From an uncultured Flavobacteriaceae bacterium (GTDB taxonomy: Bacteria; Bacteroidota; Bacteroidia; Flavobacteriales; Flavobacteriaceae): DNA of 64,000 bases. A program made the translations under genes and the position numbers. Below, in pieces: positions 14,940-48,502 of this stretch (the first letter of the stretch is position 1; each line of letters starts with the position of its first letter). A model generated the notes under the pieces. That model was not told the DNA's origin and did not search any database. It worked only from the letters and a program-made list of their open reading frames with translations. The stretch lies in contig CANMSA010000020.1 in assembly GCA_947500385.1 (NCBI GenBank), positions 1 to 64,000 of the forward strand, in the 5' to 3' direction.

Positions 14940-16031
14940 TTAAAGGACCACACTGTGTAATCGTATCGCTTCCTTTTTACCTCTTAAGGTGAGCTTGCCG
15001 ATTTCAGTAATTGCGATGGGATCTTCTTTTTGCAATTCTTTTAATAAAGCTCCCGAGATAAGTGCACTGGCATTGTAGGTATTGCATTCATCTTGAATGC
15101 GGGCCGTGGTATTCAAAACATCCCCCGTATATATAATGTCTTTCTTAATGATTCCAATCTCCCCAGTGGTCACTTCACCAATATGATAACCGGCCTTGAA
15201 TTCGGGCACCAACCCGTAGTTTGCCATATACCGCTCTTTCTTTTTTGAAATGCTTCTTGAAATTTTCTCAAAACATCTAATGCAGTTATTGGCCTTGACT
15301 CCCTCCCGCACCGACCAAGAAACCACAATTTCATCCCCTACGTACTGATAAATCTCTCCGGCCGTCTCCAAAATAGGATTGGTCATGTCGGCATAGTAAT
15401 CCTTTAATAATTCAAAATACTTCGCATGCCCTAGTTTTTCCGCTATCGATGTGGAGGATTTCATATCGAGAAACATGAAAATGCGTATCTCGGTCCTGGG
15501 TCGATGATATCTGCCAAATAAAAAGTTATACAATACTCCGTCACCTACATACTGATTAATCTCAGAAAAGAACAAGGCCAAGTTCAGGGCGACGGTTACA
15601 TATAAAATCACACTCCAAAAAGCGAAACTGTCCACAAATATTTTTAAATCTGCTATAGCAATTTCCCAACTGTTTACTTCTTCGCTCAAAAAACTACTTG
15701 ACAGTGAAATCAGCAAAATAAAAGTGATGGTAAAGCCCACATAAAAGATGGTCTTTAAAACTATTTTCTTCCAAAGGGGGCTACGATCAAACATTCTTCG
15801 TAACCAAACTACTTCGATCCACCCCTGCAAGGTGCCTATAAGCAGACTCCCAATTATGGCAACTAAAAATCCATCTTCAAAATTGTATCGATTGCCCGTG
15901 GAGGGATATCTGGTAGAATTTGGTCCCAAAATACCATACTCAACAATGACGAAGAGTAATCCAAAAACCAACCATATAATCGTAAAGGGAACGATCTGTT
16001 TTAGATATCGTATATGTCTTGGGTGTAACAT
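14940..16031 (-). CDS. Membrane-bound class III adenylate cyclase
   Basis: A 363-residue protein. Residues 1-160 contain four predicted membrane helices, followed by a linker and a class III cyclase catalytic domain (about 180-363). The two metal aspartates are in MFLDMKSSTSIAEKLG and YQYVGDEIVVSW. The base-selecting K (FKAGYHIGEV) and the Asp of YTGDVLNTTARIQ, with the transition-state Asn and Arg, fit an ATP-using enzyme. It probably makes cAMP. It is convergent with the isomerase gene and has about 400 bp of non-coding DNA behind its start. Confidence 0.87.
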   Translation of the reverse strand: MLHPRHIRYLKQIVPFTIIWLVFGLLFVIVEYGILGPNSTRYPSTGNRYNFEDGFLVAIIGSLLIGTLQGWIEVVWLRRMFDRSPLWKKIVLKTIFYVGFTITFILLISLSSSFLSEEVNSWEIAIADLKIFVDSFAFWSVILYVTVALNLALFFSEINQYVGDGVLYNFLFGRYHRPRTEIRIFMFLDMKSSTSIAEKLGHAKYFELLKDYYADMTNPILETAGEIYQYVGDEIVVSWSVREGVKANNCIRCFEKISRSISKKKERYMANYGLVPEFKAGYHIGEVTTGEIGIIKKDIIYTGDVLNTTARIQDECNTYNASALISGALLKELQKEDPIAITEIGKLTLRGKKEAIRLHSVVL

Positions 16032-16308: not shown

Positions 16309-16339
16309 TTGTTAAAATTTATATAAAATAGTACCTTTT
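16309..16339 (+). promoter_or_regulatory. Probable promoter of the 37-aa microprotein array
   Basis: TTG at 16309-16311, a 20-bp spacer, and TACCTTTT at 16332-16339 give a good fit to the Bacteroidota -33/-7 pattern (TTTG, 19-21 bp, TAnnTTTG) with one mismatch in the -7 box. Transcription would start near 16346, leaving a 5' leader of about 90 bases before the first ATG at 16436. Confidence 0.55.
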
Positions 16340-16435
16340 TATGCATAGTACTGTAACAAAACAAAACTTTCGTCGTCTAGTAAGTGTAAGTCAATTAAAA
16401 AACAACAATATAAACCGAATAAAAACTAAAAAATT

Positions 16436-16549
16436 ATGAAAGCAACTATCACAAAAACAGCCACAGAATCTAAAGCAGGACACTATTTTTCTTCTTTTAG
16501 AAATAGCAAAAGAGTACAATGGGCAGGTTACAGAAACTTTAATCGGTAA
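16436..16549 (+). CDS. 37-aa microprotein, copy 1
   Basis: A 37-codon frame beginning MKATITKTATESK and ending QWAGYRNFNR with a TAA stop. The product is strongly basic (eight K/R against one E), contains several aromatic residues, and has no membrane helix, signal peptide or cysteine. It is one of four consecutive frames of identical length. The ATG follows an A-rich leader, as is usual in this phylum. I do not recognise the family. Possible roles include an RNA- or membrane-binding peptide, an antimicrobial peptide or a stress microprotein; the sequence does not decide. Confidence 0.75.
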   Translation: MKATITKTATESKAGHYFSSFRNSKRVQWAGYRNFNR

Positions 16550-16597
16550 TCGCAATTAGTAAAAAACAACTATCAACAACATCAAAAAACAAAAATC

Positions 16598-16711
16598 ATG
16601 AAAGCATCCATCACAAAAACAGCCACAGAATCTAAAACAGGACACTATTTTTCTTCTTTTAGAAATAGCAAAAGAGTACAATGGGCAGGTTACAGAAACT
16701 TTAATCGGTAA
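16598..16711 (+). CDS. 37-aa microprotein, copy 2
   Basis: This differs from copy 1 at only two residues (T4S and A14T). It is preceded by a 48-base spacer that matches the next spacer at all but one position. The near-identity of both coding and spacer DNA shows a recent tandem duplication of a 162-bp unit. It should be on the same transcript as copies 1, 3 and 4. No function is recognised. Confidence 0.77.
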   Translation: MKASITKTATESKTGHYFSSFRNSKRVQWAGYRNFNR

Positions 16712-16759
16712 TCACAATTAGTAAAAAACAACTATCAACAACATCAAAAAACAAAAATC

Positions 16760-16873
16760 ATGAAAGCATCCATCACAAAAACAGCCACAGAATCTAAAAC
16801 AGGACAATACTTTTCTTCCTTTAGAAGCAGTAAAAGGGCACAATGGGCCCAGTATCGGAACTTTAATCGCTAG
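16760..16873 (+). CDS. 37-aa microprotein, copy 3
   Basis: It has the same 37-codon length but more nucleotide differences from copy 2. Eight codons change synonymously (for example TCT to TCC, AGA to CGG, CGG to CGC) and four change residues (H16Q, N23S, V27A, G31Q). This excess of silent changes is the mark of selection on the peptide. The stop is TAG rather than TAA. The core TESK, YFSSFR, SKR and YRNFNR are kept. Confidence 0.78.
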   Translation: MKASITKTATESKTGQYFSSFRSSKRAQWAQYRNFNR

Positions 16874-16914
16874 TCGCGATTTGTATTTCACATCAATCAT
16901 CAAAAAAGAACGTC

Positions 16915-17028
16915 ATGAACACCTTCATCAATCAATACCCAACGGAATCTAAAAAATTCATGTTCCTTTCAAAGCTCAGGGACAGCAAAAGATTCCGCAC
17001 AACAGAGCAGACCTTCAGCCTTCAATAA
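16915..17028 (+). CDS. 37-aa microprotein, diverged copy 4
   Basis: It is again exactly 37 codons, starting MNTFINQYPTESKK and ending TFSLQ. Only T10-E11-S12-K13, S19, R22 and S24-K25-R26 align with copies 1-3. The aromatic C-terminus is replaced by a polar one. Conserved length and motif positions argue that it is an old paralogue and not chance. It follows copy 3 after 41 bases and is itself followed by a strong terminator. Confidence 0.62.
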   Translation: MNTFINQYPTESKKFMFLSKLRDSKRFRTTEQTFSLQ

Positions 17029-17050
17029 AGGCTACCTAAACACAAGACTA

Positions 17051-17086
17051 AAAAGGGATACACTTCATCAATGTATCCCTTTTTTA
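17051..17086 (+). terminator. Intrinsic terminator of the microprotein array
   Basis: A 9-bp stem AGGGATACA/TGTATCCCT, extended to 12 bp by flanking A/T pairs, with a 9-base loop and a T-run. It lies 22 bases after the stop of copy 4 and so closes a transcript starting near 16346. Confidence 0.88.
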
Positions 17087-37397: not shown

Positions 37398-37468
37398 ACA
37401 ATTCAGGCATGAAAAAGTACAGTTCGGTCGATCCAATTTTAATTGTCGGTACTACCATCGCATCTTTG
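37398..37468 (+). promoter_or_regulatory. LytTR-type operator and promoter of the second DUF2141 gene
   Basis: On the plus strand: ACAATTCAG (37398-37406), 12-bp spacer, ACAGTTCGG (37419-37427), 33 bp, CATCTTTG (37461-37468), and the ATG at 37517. It lies 17 bp from the divergent operator for the TonB receptor, so both genes are likely switched together. Confidence 0.8.
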
Positions 37469-37516: not shown

Positions 37517-37936
37517 ATGAAAAAACTAGCATTTATTTTAGGATTAGCAGCAATGAGTTTCACCACTTTCACCAGCGCCCAAGAAGGCGTTACGGTAACC
37601 GTAGTAGTAGAAAATGTACTTTCTGATGGTGGTACCATTCTTGGAGGATTACATACCAATGAAACCTTTATGAAAGGAAGCGGTATCCTCAACGCTTCGG
37701 CCCCCGCCAAGGAGGGTGAAGTTCGTTTCACTTTTGAAAATGTACAACCGGGCACCTATGCCATAATGGTTATGCACGACGCCAATGACAATATGCGAAT
37801 GGATATGGAGGCCAACGGAATGCCCAAAGAGAGCTATGGAATGAGTGGAAATGAAATGGCCATGGGACCACCAACCTTTGATGGCGCAAAATTCGAAATT
37901 GCGAACGAAGACAAGGAGTTCAGAATACGGTTCTAA
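37517..37936 (+). CDS. DUF2141 secreted protein (second copy)
   Basis: A 139-residue protein with a signal peptide (MKKLAFILGLAAMSFTTFTSAQ). The body has VTVTVVVENVLSDGGTILGGL, FENVQPGTYAIMVMHDANDN and GPPTFDGAKFEI, the hallmarks of DUF2141. It is paralogous to the gene at 6088-6507 and of equal length, but the acidic turn is HDANDNMRMD. It shares a divergent LytTR-controlled region with the TonB-dependent receptor. The stop is followed by a terminator. Confidence 0.88.
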   Translation: MKKLAFILGLAAMSFTTFTSAQEGVTVTVVVENVLSDGGTILGGLHTNETFMKGSGILNASAPAKEGEVRFTFENVQPGTYAIMVMHDANDNMRMDMEANGMPKESYGMSGNEMAMGPPTFDGAKFEIANEDKEFRIRF

Positions 37937-38277: not shown

Positions 38278-38493
38278 TTATCTACAAACACATACAGATC
38301 TTCCTGCCAATGTAGGTGCGGGAACGGTCGTATTTCCGCAATACTGAGAGGTATCGTTGGTAGTTGCCGTTGGTCTTGCACAGTCCTCGTCCCATGTAAA
38401 ATCATTCCCGGTACCTCCTACAATTGACTGTAAATTTAAACTTGAAATTGTCTTTTTATTCAAAGACAAACCATTTAGATGCTTTTTTTTCAT
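38278..38493 (-). CDS. Lanthipeptide-like precursor with GG leader
   Basis: A 71-residue peptide. The leader has the Bacteroidota class I lanthipeptide pattern (LSLNKKTISSLNL) and a double-glycine cleavage site (SIVGG). The core of about 43 residues is rich in Thr and Ser and has four Cys (EDC, QYC, VCVC), so rings between Cys and dehydrated Ser/Thr are conceivable. No LanB/LanC, protease or ABC exporter gene is visible in the window, so the maturation enzymes must be elsewhere or the peptide is unmodified. It lies 133 bp downstream of the LytS-type kinase gene, in the same direction. Confidence 0.78.
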   Translation of the reverse strand: MKKKHLNGLSLNKKTISSLNLQSIVGGTGNDFTWDEDCARPTATTNDTSQYCGNTTVPAPTLAGRSVCVCR

Positions 38494-46159: not shown

Positions 46160-48502
46160 ATGGAACATGAAGAATATGATAATCAGGAACATTCGATTAT
46201 CAAGGACTTACTTGAAAAATACACCTATCACTGGAAGCTATTTTTCGTCATCTTCGTATTGAGTTTTACAGCGGCCTTCTTTTACCTGCGTTACACGCAA
46301 AAGACCTATAAGGTTTCTGCAAGTATTTTGATCAAAGTAGAAAAAAACGGCATCTTTTCCGAGTTATCCGCACTGGAAGACCTTTCTGTGTTTAAAAATG
46401 TAAACCACGAAGTAGAGAACGAAATCGAAATCTTAAAGTCACGACCACTCATGGAAAAAGTGGTCAAGGAATTGAACCTGAACATTCAATACCATACCAA
46501 AACCCAGTATACGAAACGAATGGTTGAGATTACCGAAGACGTACCTATCAAGGTCTCTTTTCTCGACGCCACCCAATACGAAAAAAGCGGCCGTTTTGTG
46601 GTGTCGCTCTTGTCCGATACCGAATTCGAACTACTTAGCCTAGATGGGAAACGCATTAAAAAAGGAATCGTAGGAGAACCCTTGGAAAGTGATTTAGGAG
46701 ATTTTGTGCTTCATTTGAACCACCCCTTGAATCCAGAGTACATCGGCCAACATCTTTACGTAACCCTTTTTTCGCTCGTCGATGCCGTAGAAAGCTACAA
46801 ATCCCGTATTCATGTAGGTATAAACGATCTTAAAAGTACCGTGGTACTTTTATCCATGAACTCCCGATCCAAAAAAAGGGCTAAGAATATCCTTTCTTCC
46901 CTGATCAAAGAATATAACAGAAGTATTATCATCGATAAGAATCAGATCATAGAAAATACCTCGGAGTTCATAAAACAACGATTGGACATCATTAACAAGG
47001 AACTGGCCGGACTCGAGAAAAACCTGGAATCCTTTAAAAAGAAAAACAACCTTACCGACCTACCGACAGAAGCCTCTATCTTTTTACAGAACGAATCTCA
47101 AAATGAGAAAATAATGATAGGGAATTCGGTACAACAAGAGTTGGTAAATCTGGTACTTGACTTCATCGACAACAAAAAGGGAGACTTGCTGCCTGCCACA
47201 CTGGGGTTCGAAGACCGCACCGTAGCGGAACTTATCGTTAAATACAATGATGTGGCCGTAGAACGGAATAGGATCGCCAGAAGTTCCGGCGGTAAAAACC
47301 CCGTTTTGATGATACTCAACGAAAAGCTGAAAGTACAGGAAGAAAGTCTACGTCAAAGCCTTAACAATCTTCAAACAACCCTCGATTCTGAATACGACGG
47401 CTATGATCAGCGAGACATCAACCTTCATGCAAAGCTTGGAAGTCTCCCTACGAAAGAACGTAAACTGCGCGATATTCAACGGCAACAACAAATAAAGGAG
47501 ACCTTGTTTCTATATCTTTTGGAAAAAAGCGAGGAAGCGGCCATTTCTTTGGCCGCTACCGCTACGAACGCAAAGATTATAGAAGCGCCTTTTACCTCTG
47601 CGGTACCCGTAAATCCGAAAAGCAACAAAACCTATCTCTCGGCTTTTTTGGCCGGACTGTTAATACCGATCGTTTTATTGCTCATTAAAGATACGCTAGA
47701 TACCAAGGTGAACGATATCAAAAGCCTACGAAGGGCATTGCCCCTGCCATTATTGGGAGATATTCCGAGCTCTAAACAACCCAGCAAAATCCTAGACTTG
47801 GACAGGGACCAATCGGATGTTGCCGAATCGTTTCGGCTATTGGACATTAACTTAAACTTTCTGCTATCACAAAATGCCCATGCACCCAAGACGATATTGA
47901 TTACTTCCACCCGTAAGGGGGAGGGCAAATCATTTGTGGCCTGTAACCTGGCCATTACCCTAGCGCGTTCTGAAAAGAGGGTGGCCTTGTTGGAAATGGA
48001 TCTTCGGTCCCCCATGATTCGAAGGCATTTGGGCATCAAAGCGAAAACAGGATTGACCAACTTCATCAAAGACCCCAACTTATCCCTTTCCGATATCACT
48101 ATAAAAATGGAAGGACTCCATAACCTGGATGTCATTACTTCAGGAACCACCCCTCCAAACCCAGCCGAGTTGTTAAAGAGTACCCGCGTGGATAAAATGT
48201 TCAAAGAACTAAAAGAAAACTATGATTACATTATCATTGATACCCCTCCGGTAAGTTTGGTGGCCGATACATTGTTACTTGGGGTCTATGCCGATTTATG
48301 CGCCTATATTGTGCGTTTCAACTATTCGGACAAACGCATGCTCGATTACGCAAAAAACCTGTATCAAGAAAAACGATTTAAGAGCATGGCCCTTCTTGTA
48401 AATGATGTGGATTACAAAAAGACGTATGGGTACGGGTATGGGTACGGATATGGATATGGATACGGGGAAAAAACTAAAAAATCGTTCTTCTCCCTTAATT
48501 AA
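46160..48502 (+). CDS. Polysaccharide co-polymerase with tyrosine kinase (Wzc type)
   Basis: A 780-residue inner-membrane protein. An N-terminal Wzz-like domain is framed by membrane helices (LFFVIFVLSFTAAFFYL and YLSAFLAGLLIPIVLLLI), with a long periplasmic coiled-coil region between. The C-terminal BY-kinase has Walker A STRKGEGKS, a Walker A'-type stretch VALLEMDLRSP and IIIDTPPVSLVADT. The tail ends in seven YG dipeptides, the autophosphorylated tyrosine cluster. It regulates chain length and export. No Wza-type exporter gene is adjacent; the partial outer-membrane protein at the right edge is unlikely to be one. Confidence 0.92.
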   Translation: MEHEEYDNQEHSIIKDLLEKYTYHWKLFFVIFVLSFTAAFFYLRYTQKTYKVSASILIKVEKNGIFSELSALEDLSVFKNVNHEVENEIEILKSRPLMEKVVKELNLNIQYHTKTQYTKRMVEITEDVPIKVSFLDATQYEKSGRFVVSLLSDTEFELLSLDGKRIKKGIVGEPLESDLGDFVLHLNHPLNPEYIGQHLYVTLFSLVDAVESYKSRIHVGINDLKSTVVLLSMNSRSKKRAKNILSSLIKEYNRSIIIDKNQIIENTSEFIKQRLDIINKELAGLEKNLESFKKKNNLTDLPTEASIFLQNESQNEKIMIGNSVQQELVNLVLDFIDNKKGDLLPATLGFEDRTVAELIVKYNDVAVERNRIARSSGGKNPVLMILNEKLKVQEESLRQSLNNLQTTLDSEYDGYDQRDINLHAKLGSLPTKERKLRDIQRQQQIKETLFLYLLEKSEEAAISLAATATNAKIIEAPFTSAVPVNPKSNKTYLSAFLAGLLIPIVLLLIKDTLDTKVNDIKSLRRALPLPLLGDIPSSKQPSKILDLDRDQSDVAESFRLLDINLNFLLSQNAHAPKTILITSTRKGEGKSFVACNLAITLARSEKRVALLEMDLRSPMIRRHLGIKAKTGLTNFIKDPNLSLSDITIKMEGLHNLDVITSGTTPPNPAELLKSTRVDKMFKELKENYDYIIIDTPPVSLVADTLLLGVYADLCAYIVRFNYSDKRMLDYAKNLYQEKRFKSMALLVNDVDYKKTYGYGYGYGYGYGYGEKTKKSFFSLN
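48425..48466 (+). repeat. Hexanucleotide repeat coding for the tyrosine tail
   Basis: Seven consecutive TAYGGN units encode alternating Tyr and Gly at the end of the Wzc-type kinase. Slippage in multiples of six would change the number of phosphorylatable tyrosines without breaking the frame. Confidence 0.85.

Follow-up and report, generated by a model that had tools for sequence, protein, structure and literature searches.

The window, that is, the whole stretch of 64,000 nucleotides analysed here from an uncultured member of the Flavobacteriaceae, carries four successive open reading frames of 37 codons between positions 16436 and 17028, as the first-pass annotation had claimed. The regulatory unit begins 5' of the range given in that annotation, at about 16311, and the features are the following.

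16311..16316, + strand: GTTAAA element, conserved in arrays, on the 5' side of the operator (upstream alignments)
16330..16351, + strand: putative PadR-type operator AGTACCTTTTTATGCATAGTAC, half palindrome AGTAC...GTAC, like the sites before DUF4870-PadR-PspC operons and the top matrix match of the window
16352..16379, + strand: ECF-sigma-like core promoter TGTAAC-N16-CGTCTA (motif searches, upstream alignments)
16380..16435, + strand: 5' leader, A-rich and unstructured (minimum free energy 0)
16436..16549, + strand: microprotein copy 1 (A-type, 37 aa, net charge +7; ORF calls, copy alignment, codon statistics)
16598..16711, + strand: microprotein copy 2 (A-type, 37 aa; same evidence)
16760..16873, + strand: microprotein copy 3 (A-type, 37 aa; same evidence)
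16915..17028, + strand: microprotein copy 4 (terminal B-type, 37 aa, net charge +4; alignment, codon statistics)
17050..17084, + strand: intrinsic terminator hairpin (-15.2 kcal/mol, z -6.2)

Copies 1 to 3 stand on an exact 162-bp period, as noted earlier, and TRF reports a single array with this period at 16429-16848. Copies 1 and 2 differ by two replacement codons and no silent ones, and for copies 2 and 3 our recount agrees with the eight silent and four replacement codons given before. Copy 4 is only 30% identical to copy 1, and the alignment bears out that it nevertheless keeps the TESK and SKR positions. The array had also been described as lying between a promoter-like element and a strong terminator. 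The promoter was found and has an ECF-like form, and the terminator has perfect 13-bp arms followed by a T-rich stretch. Rfam (gathering threshold) and ARAGORN gave no match over the window. Elsewhere in the window there is a 12-bp tandem repeat (TATGGGTACGGA, 3.5 copies, 48425-48466), as well as a 71-aa ORF on the minus strand (38278-38493) with a double-Gly leader-like stretch, LNLQSIVGG, and then a Thr/Cys-containing tail, which presumably resembles a Bacteroidota RiPP-type precursor.

Spread and coding nature of the family

With a single copy as the query (E ≤ 0.01), relatives were found in 14 of 99 genomes, namely, the source genome, all nine of its genus mates, and four other genera, and the family is thus present in 10 of the 10 genomes of the genus. 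A 29-member profile found it in at least 60 of 397 genomes and at least 39 of 237 genera drawn from the Flavobacteriaceae, and in at least 3 of 196 genomes drawn from the order, all three of them Flavobacteriaceae; the 60 and the 3 are lower bounds, as scoring covered a subset of the first-look candidates. Named genera with matches include Maribacter, Ulvibacterium, Arenibacter, Pricia, Croceitalea, Muriicola, Zeaxanthinibacter, and Euzebyella. The search for relatives yielded 79 retained loci, and once identical or contained DNA had been removed, 108 distinct arrays were left from 174. These hold 293 copies, 250 of them 37 aa long, with up to six copies counted in one array. Many arrays consist of A-type copies followed by a single divergent B-type copy, and in the arrays listed a divergent copy commonly stands last. 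The source genome (6.03 Mb) has a second array (G000:C6:136089-136556). In seven of eight genomes with two arrays, the mean identity between copies is higher within an array than between arrays, in two of them by about 0.01 or less, and the exception is G003 (arrays L039 and L040). This within-array likeness hints at local duplication or conversion.

There is no conserved neighbour gene, as the best neighbour cluster occurs near 16 of the 108 arrays, and this is what would be expected of a regulon controlled in trans. In the window, a membrane adenylate/guanylate cyclase gene (14940-16031, minus strand) is divergent from the array; relatives of this gene are found near 13 of the 108 arrays, and the cyclase-adjacent position is perhaps the ancestral site. 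A tblastn search with copy 3 against phages and plasmids gave no match, viral contigs contained no relative of A3, and the PHROGs matches of the A/B-type were at chance level (best E 0.042), and on these grounds a phage or plasmid origin was rejected. Pfam and NCBIfam contained no family above cut-off for the members tested.

The proposal that this is a real, amplified microprotein family agrees with the 293 copies in 108 arrays, their near-fixed length, and the way in which their codons vary. For 204 A-type sequences, the entropies at the three codon positions were 0.53, 0.57, and 1.14, so variation is concentrated in third positions. The dN/dS-style comparison of homologues that had been proposed gave a pooled pN/pS of 0.29 for the A-type (204 sequences) versus 0.65 for the B-type (36 sequences), which suggests that B-type copies are weakly constrained. 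These statistics cover the 37-aa copies (250 of 293) and pairs with a pS below 0.6, and the zero in-frame stops in this set are a consequence of choosing open frames and carry no evidence. Stops or frameshifts in relatives would speak against a protein family. In a stop-tolerant search an internal stop was present in 1 of 72 matches (G008:C40:27905-28006), and this copy (L063, 5897-6010) is a degraded A-type copy directly before an intact B-type copy, so the family reading stands.

It could be argued that the array is instead a repeated structured non-coding RNA with incidental ORFs, an explanation that we regard as extremely improbable. The whole 711-nt region does fold better than shuffled sequences (z -5.0, 20 shuffles), copy 4 has a z of -1.9, and the 48-nt spacer also exceeds its shuffles, yet at just -0.9 kcal/mol. 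However, the terminator alone can account for the value of the region, copies 1, 2, and 3 have z scores of +1.4, +1.0, and +0.3, respectively, and the leader is unfolded. Based on the Rfam result, the folding of shuffled sequences, and the codon-position pattern, the structured-RNA reading was rejected. By the sequence tests available, the arrays are genes.

The composite promoter and the peptides behind it

The block upstream of the arrays is nearly invariant. It consists of GTTAAA, then AGTACC, a T-rich stretch and CATAGTAC, followed by TGTAACAAAA, variable bases, and CGTCTA. The sequence AGTACTGTAACAAA stands exactly upstream of 72 of the 108 arrays and with at most two mismatches upstream of 83; 10 more have three or four mismatches and 15 have no match, some of the arrays without a match being cut by contig ends. 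The predicted operator abuts the -35 element of the array promoter. We take TGTAAC-N16-CGTCTA to be the form of an ECF-sigma promoter. An AAC-type -35 element is combined with a CGTC -10 element, and the spacer is N16 in 107 of 111 distinct sites, where the pattern allowed 15 to 18. The accessible text of PMC9723704 describes ECF promoters of flavobacteria as having a CGT -10 box. When the ECF core was searched alone in six genomes, it gave 21 sites versus 3 for the control, and because several of these sites adjoin unrelated genes, the core without the operator is unspecific. Pairs of TGTAAC-N16-CGTCTA motifs that stand close together without a PadR-type operator were seen in three genomes (L188, L191, L179, L185, L193, and L196); those in G000 and G002 adjoin FabH and CoA-binding genes, and none of the pairs has a clear product.

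The composite pattern GTACTGTAAC-N15/18-CGTC occurs in 169 of the 397 family genomes and 118 of the 237 genera, with 1 to 3 sites per genome and 197 sites in total versus 32 for the reversed control (hand count). The exact composite promoter is missing in 13 of the 60 A-type genomes. In a draw from the class, the pattern was present in 7 of 247 genomes. Besides the source genome these comprise one more member of the family and five others, and these five have spacers of 15, 17, or 18 and are fewer than the matches of the reversed control there. We read 111 distinct sites (110 loci out of the 197 sites, mostly from genomes without A-type arrays). Ninety-seven of them stand ahead of at least one microprotein, mostly a tandem 28-aa type plus a 44-aa type, by a count whose microprotein profiles were trained on the same sites. 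Four operator loci outside the A-type searches (L220, L225, L227, and L235) likewise have a composite promoter followed by tandem ORFs of 27 to 31 aa. In L220 one short ORF of this kind and one 44-aa ORF were seen, and L225 has an extra, A/B-like third ORF, its genome (G360) having one weak A-type match.

The S-type comprises 149 copies, 122 of which are 28 aa long, with codon-position entropies of 0.76, 0.71, and 1.13 and the consensus MRTLNxNQLT...SKSxxWNSKRRYR (12 sequences). The D-type has 54 copies, 45 of them 43 to 44 aa long, which commonly end in WKGTKRYAH. A C-type of about 39 aa (METLYPHQxRPRIYF.IG.GWNTDR) is found in 30 of the 108 A/B arrays, among them L034, L037, and L096, and precedes the first copy in 26. 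When the S- and A-types were compared by hhalign, the probability was 15% (E 0.0018) over 17 C-terminal columns, and the D-type gave an E of 0.08, so homology of the A-, S-, and D-types is suggestive only. Protein searches with a single type miss the others, since the peptides diverge and the switch is conserved. Fourteen of the sites read precede no microprotein. Four of these carry the complete upstream signature, L314 has part of it, and most others have none. The four full-signature sites (two in L279, one each in L312 and L313) precede an exported acidic repeat protein with repeats like IELIEIEEEVELGFDTSKYLPxNFNALKGK.

The operator in common with the padR operon

A search of six genomes with the operator pattern turned up 14 sites, and its reversed control none; 10 of the sites are at arrays and 4 precede a DUF4870-(DUF4440)-PadR-PspC-DUF2807 operon. 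In the source genome, PadR and PspC are encoded about 52 kb from the array on the same contig, and the operon contains the Pfam domains PF03551, PF04024, PF22571, PF22744, and PF10988, with the HAAS domain PF22564 at 23.4 bits, under its cut-off of 27. The arrangement is that of the HAAS-PadR phage-shock (PSP) systems in the accessible text of PMC11237479, and based on its domains and on that description, as far as it goes, the module of the source genome is a HAAS-PadR PSP system.

In the family draw, a strict form of the operator was present in 112 of the 397 genomes versus 24 for the reversed pattern (hand count), that is, in 44 of the 60 genomes with A-type arrays and 68 of the 337 without. 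Thirty operator loci were fetched, and these comprise 18 DUF4870-PadR promoters, 9 microprotein promoters, and 3 that are neither (L217, L218, and L233); L230 is the opposite strand of the G034 array promoter. A matrix was built from the PSP-operon operators (18 of 22 loci, leaving out 4 without orientation by the text rule). With this matrix the array site ranks first in the window at 22.9 bits, the next of the 127,956 positions having 7.6 bits, and this second value is exceeded by 80 of 82 A-type and 87 of 91 S-type promoter sites. In a sample of 60 genomes, chosen by the analyst as 20 per group, a site above 7.6 bits lies just upstream of DUF4870 in 58 (all 20 with the S-type, and 19 of 20 each in the A-type group and the group without a composite promoter), and PadR was found in all 60, in the stretch upstream of PspC. 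No such match was obtained for L396 or for L414, whose contig stops short of DUF4870. The PSP sites of G004 and G033 were missed by the stricter pattern and recovered by the matrix.

The occurrence in 58 of 60 genomes indicates that this is the module's own operator, and such a near-constant feature of the PadR operon is consistent with autoregulation. As it is also present in 19 of the 20 genomes without a composite promoter, the module does not require the microproteins. At the level of sequence, the array promoter thus has the same operator class as the padR operon, as would be expected for a member of a PSP/HAAS-PadR regulon. The left half of the operator differs, being AGTACCTTT at the array and AGTACTTTG at the PSP operon. 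GTTAAA or GTTAAT is also found ahead of the PSP-operon operator, and a TATATTTG-like box follows closely downstream of this operator. As the operator adjoins the -35 element at the arrays and this box at the padR operon, both positions fit repression by occlusion. PspC is present in 220 of 239 genomes, and the composite promoter occurs in 99 of the 220 with PspC versus 2 of the 19 without, a loose co-occurrence confounded by small or incomplete genomes and based on hand-transcribed genome lists; the association is weak because PspC is so common. PadR repressors are described for Listeria in PMC6624303, whose available text gives no operator sequence, and for Zobellia a PadR induced by polysaccharide and adjoining other genes appears in the available text of PMC5613140.

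A second input is suggested by direct repeats. Twenty-five arrays have a spacer of at least 100 nt (27 spacers), and many of these spacers hold ACARYTNNG-N12/13-ACARYTNNG and then a TAnnTTTG-like box; in the window array no such repeat was seen. We assume a resemblance of these 9-bp repeats to LytTR/AgrA sites, and as in AgrA/LytTR direct-repeat promoters, the ACARYTNNG units are spaced by 12 to 13 bp. A loose scan with at most two mismatches listed 37 arrays, among them clear chance matches inside ORFs. In four genomes the exact pattern gave five sites versus four for the reversed control, so the numbers alone prove nothing, and it is the position of the sites that speaks for the repeat. Three are inside the PSP operon, in the interval from PspC to DUF2807 (G000, G009, and G040), and two precede DUF2141-like genes (Pfam confirmed in the window, identified by eye in G009). 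In the window, the repeat and TTTG box (37398-37427) stand before a gene for a DUF2141 secreted protein (37517-37936), and the situation in G009 (L250) is similar.

Candidate actions of the peptides and related systems

Because the start signals of the array match the switch of a membrane-stress sensor, the array is probably an overlooked output of that response. Our main reading, to which we give a probability of roughly 0.6, is that it encodes, as one small operon, basic microproteins that contain Trp, and that it is an output of the HAAS-PadR-PspC-Toastrack PSP (envelope-stress) module. We infer that PadR binds to and represses both sites, that an ECF sigma factor reads the promoter, and that stress is the inducer. 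In the unstressed cell, the PadR repressor would sit on the operator abutting the -35 element and block the ECF-sigma promoter. Membrane damage sensed by PspC/HAAS would release PadR, and with an active ECF sigma factor the array would then be transcribed as a single short mRNA, the near-identical copies allowing a rapid burst of 37-aa cationic peptides. These may act on the inner face of the damaged membrane, and the membrane as target is the least certain part of the proposal.

The peptides themselves allow more than one action. The A-type has a mean net charge of +6.4, and a tryptophan followed by basic residues near the C terminus (a loose motif) is found in 255 of 304 A-type, 146 of 149 S-type, and 44 of 54 D-type sequences. 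This would fit action at the membrane surface or on RNA or the ribosome. The microproteins have no hydrophobic segment, and in the five segments tested for an amphipathic helix the moments were not above those of shuffles. A type I toxin would be a hydrophobic membrane peptide with an antisense RNA; the peptides here are basic and hydrophilic. RiPP precursors, which have linked maturation or export genes and a variable core, fit poorly, as no neighbour cluster goes beyond 16 of the 108 arrays and the C terminus is conserved. PDB sequences gave chance matches to the A2 profile (best E 0.071) and the AlphaFold2 model, with two low-confidence helices (pLDDT 68, pTM 0.27), is too weak, so that a known fold was rejected. 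The helix moments and this model neither favour nor contradict the binding to RNA, ribosomes, or membranes that the first-pass annotation had proposed from charge and aromatic residues.

It is possible, although we doubt it, that the targets bound by the basic microproteins during stress are rRNA, ribosomes, or mRNA, for hibernation or translation control, and that the peptides are regulated by the envelope response while mechanically outside it. The charge, the tryptophan and basic residues common to the A-, S-, and D-types, and the absence of a membrane segment would agree with this, and a multicopy dosage suits an abundant target. On the other hand, there is no homology to ribosome factors in Pfam or NCBIfam or, with the A2 profile, in PDB sequences, and the regulation points toward envelope stress. 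Peptides that are small, diverge quickly, and are restricted to a lineage are typical of regulators, and the operator is common to the arrays and the PSP operon, so the microproteins may alternatively be feedback regulators that tune the response by binding to the ECF sigma factor or to the PadR/HAAS/PspC machinery. We consider this unlikely, as several copies per array and a second array argue for dosage, and in the genomes examined closely the arrays do not adjoin the PSP operon. Still less probable is that they are secreted or released as cationic antimicrobial or signal peptides. They are cationic, contain Trp, and are 28 to 37 aa long, and a marine-biofilm Ribo-seq survey, which according to its available text retained expressed small peptides with a net charge above 2 and had Flavobacteriaceae among its main sources (PMC11683478), can be counted in favour. 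However, there is no evident leader and, across the 108 arrays, no conserved neighbour for processing, export, or immunity, and the tandem copies are nearly identical, with constraint along the whole length.

The output of the PSP module thus remains our preferred reading for the array. A broader version has, in our estimation, about an even chance of being correct, namely, that the Flavobacteriaceae have an undescribed envelope-stress output in which a single PadR/ECF promoter module, present in about half of the sampled genera, governs tandem operons that encode lineage-specific cationic microproteins. The promoter would persist as the peptides turn over (28-aa MRTL...WNSKRRYR, 37-aa MKAS...WAQYRNFNR, 39-aa METLYPHQ..., and 44-aa ...WKGTKRYAH), and the peptides would supply the effector arm that is missing from HAAS-PadR PSP systems in these bacteria. 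The searchable promoter yields a small regulon in which most sites read precede proteins under common gene-calling cut-offs, and reading promoters in this way can uncover microproteins that protein searches miss. It also makes HAAS-PadR function directly testable in a major marine family.

The ECF-sigma promoter of flavobacteria with which ours was compared is motif SM6 of F. psychrophilum (PMC9723704). The portion of that paper available is silent on a TGTAAC -35 element, on a PadR-type operator next to it, and on microprotein targets, and neither PadR nor PspC occurs in its text. Similarly, the available portion of the paper on the HAAS-PadR-PspC-Toastrack system (PMC11237479) names no microprotein output or operator sequence, DUF4870 is absent from its text, and the arrays described here are unlinked to the PSP operon in the genomes examined. 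Full-text literature searches recovered no recognised description of these microproteins or of the operator. To our knowledge, few effectors of PSP systems are known outside Proteobacteria and Firmicutes. Small stress effectors of the LiaIH/PspG type are membrane or coiled-coil proteins that are induced by envelope stress via a PSP-like regulator. The microproteins resemble them as small proteins under a PSP-like regulator, with a presumed induction by envelope stress, and differ from them in having no family match and in being soluble-looking, cationic, only 28 to 45 aa long, and encoded in tandem arrays.
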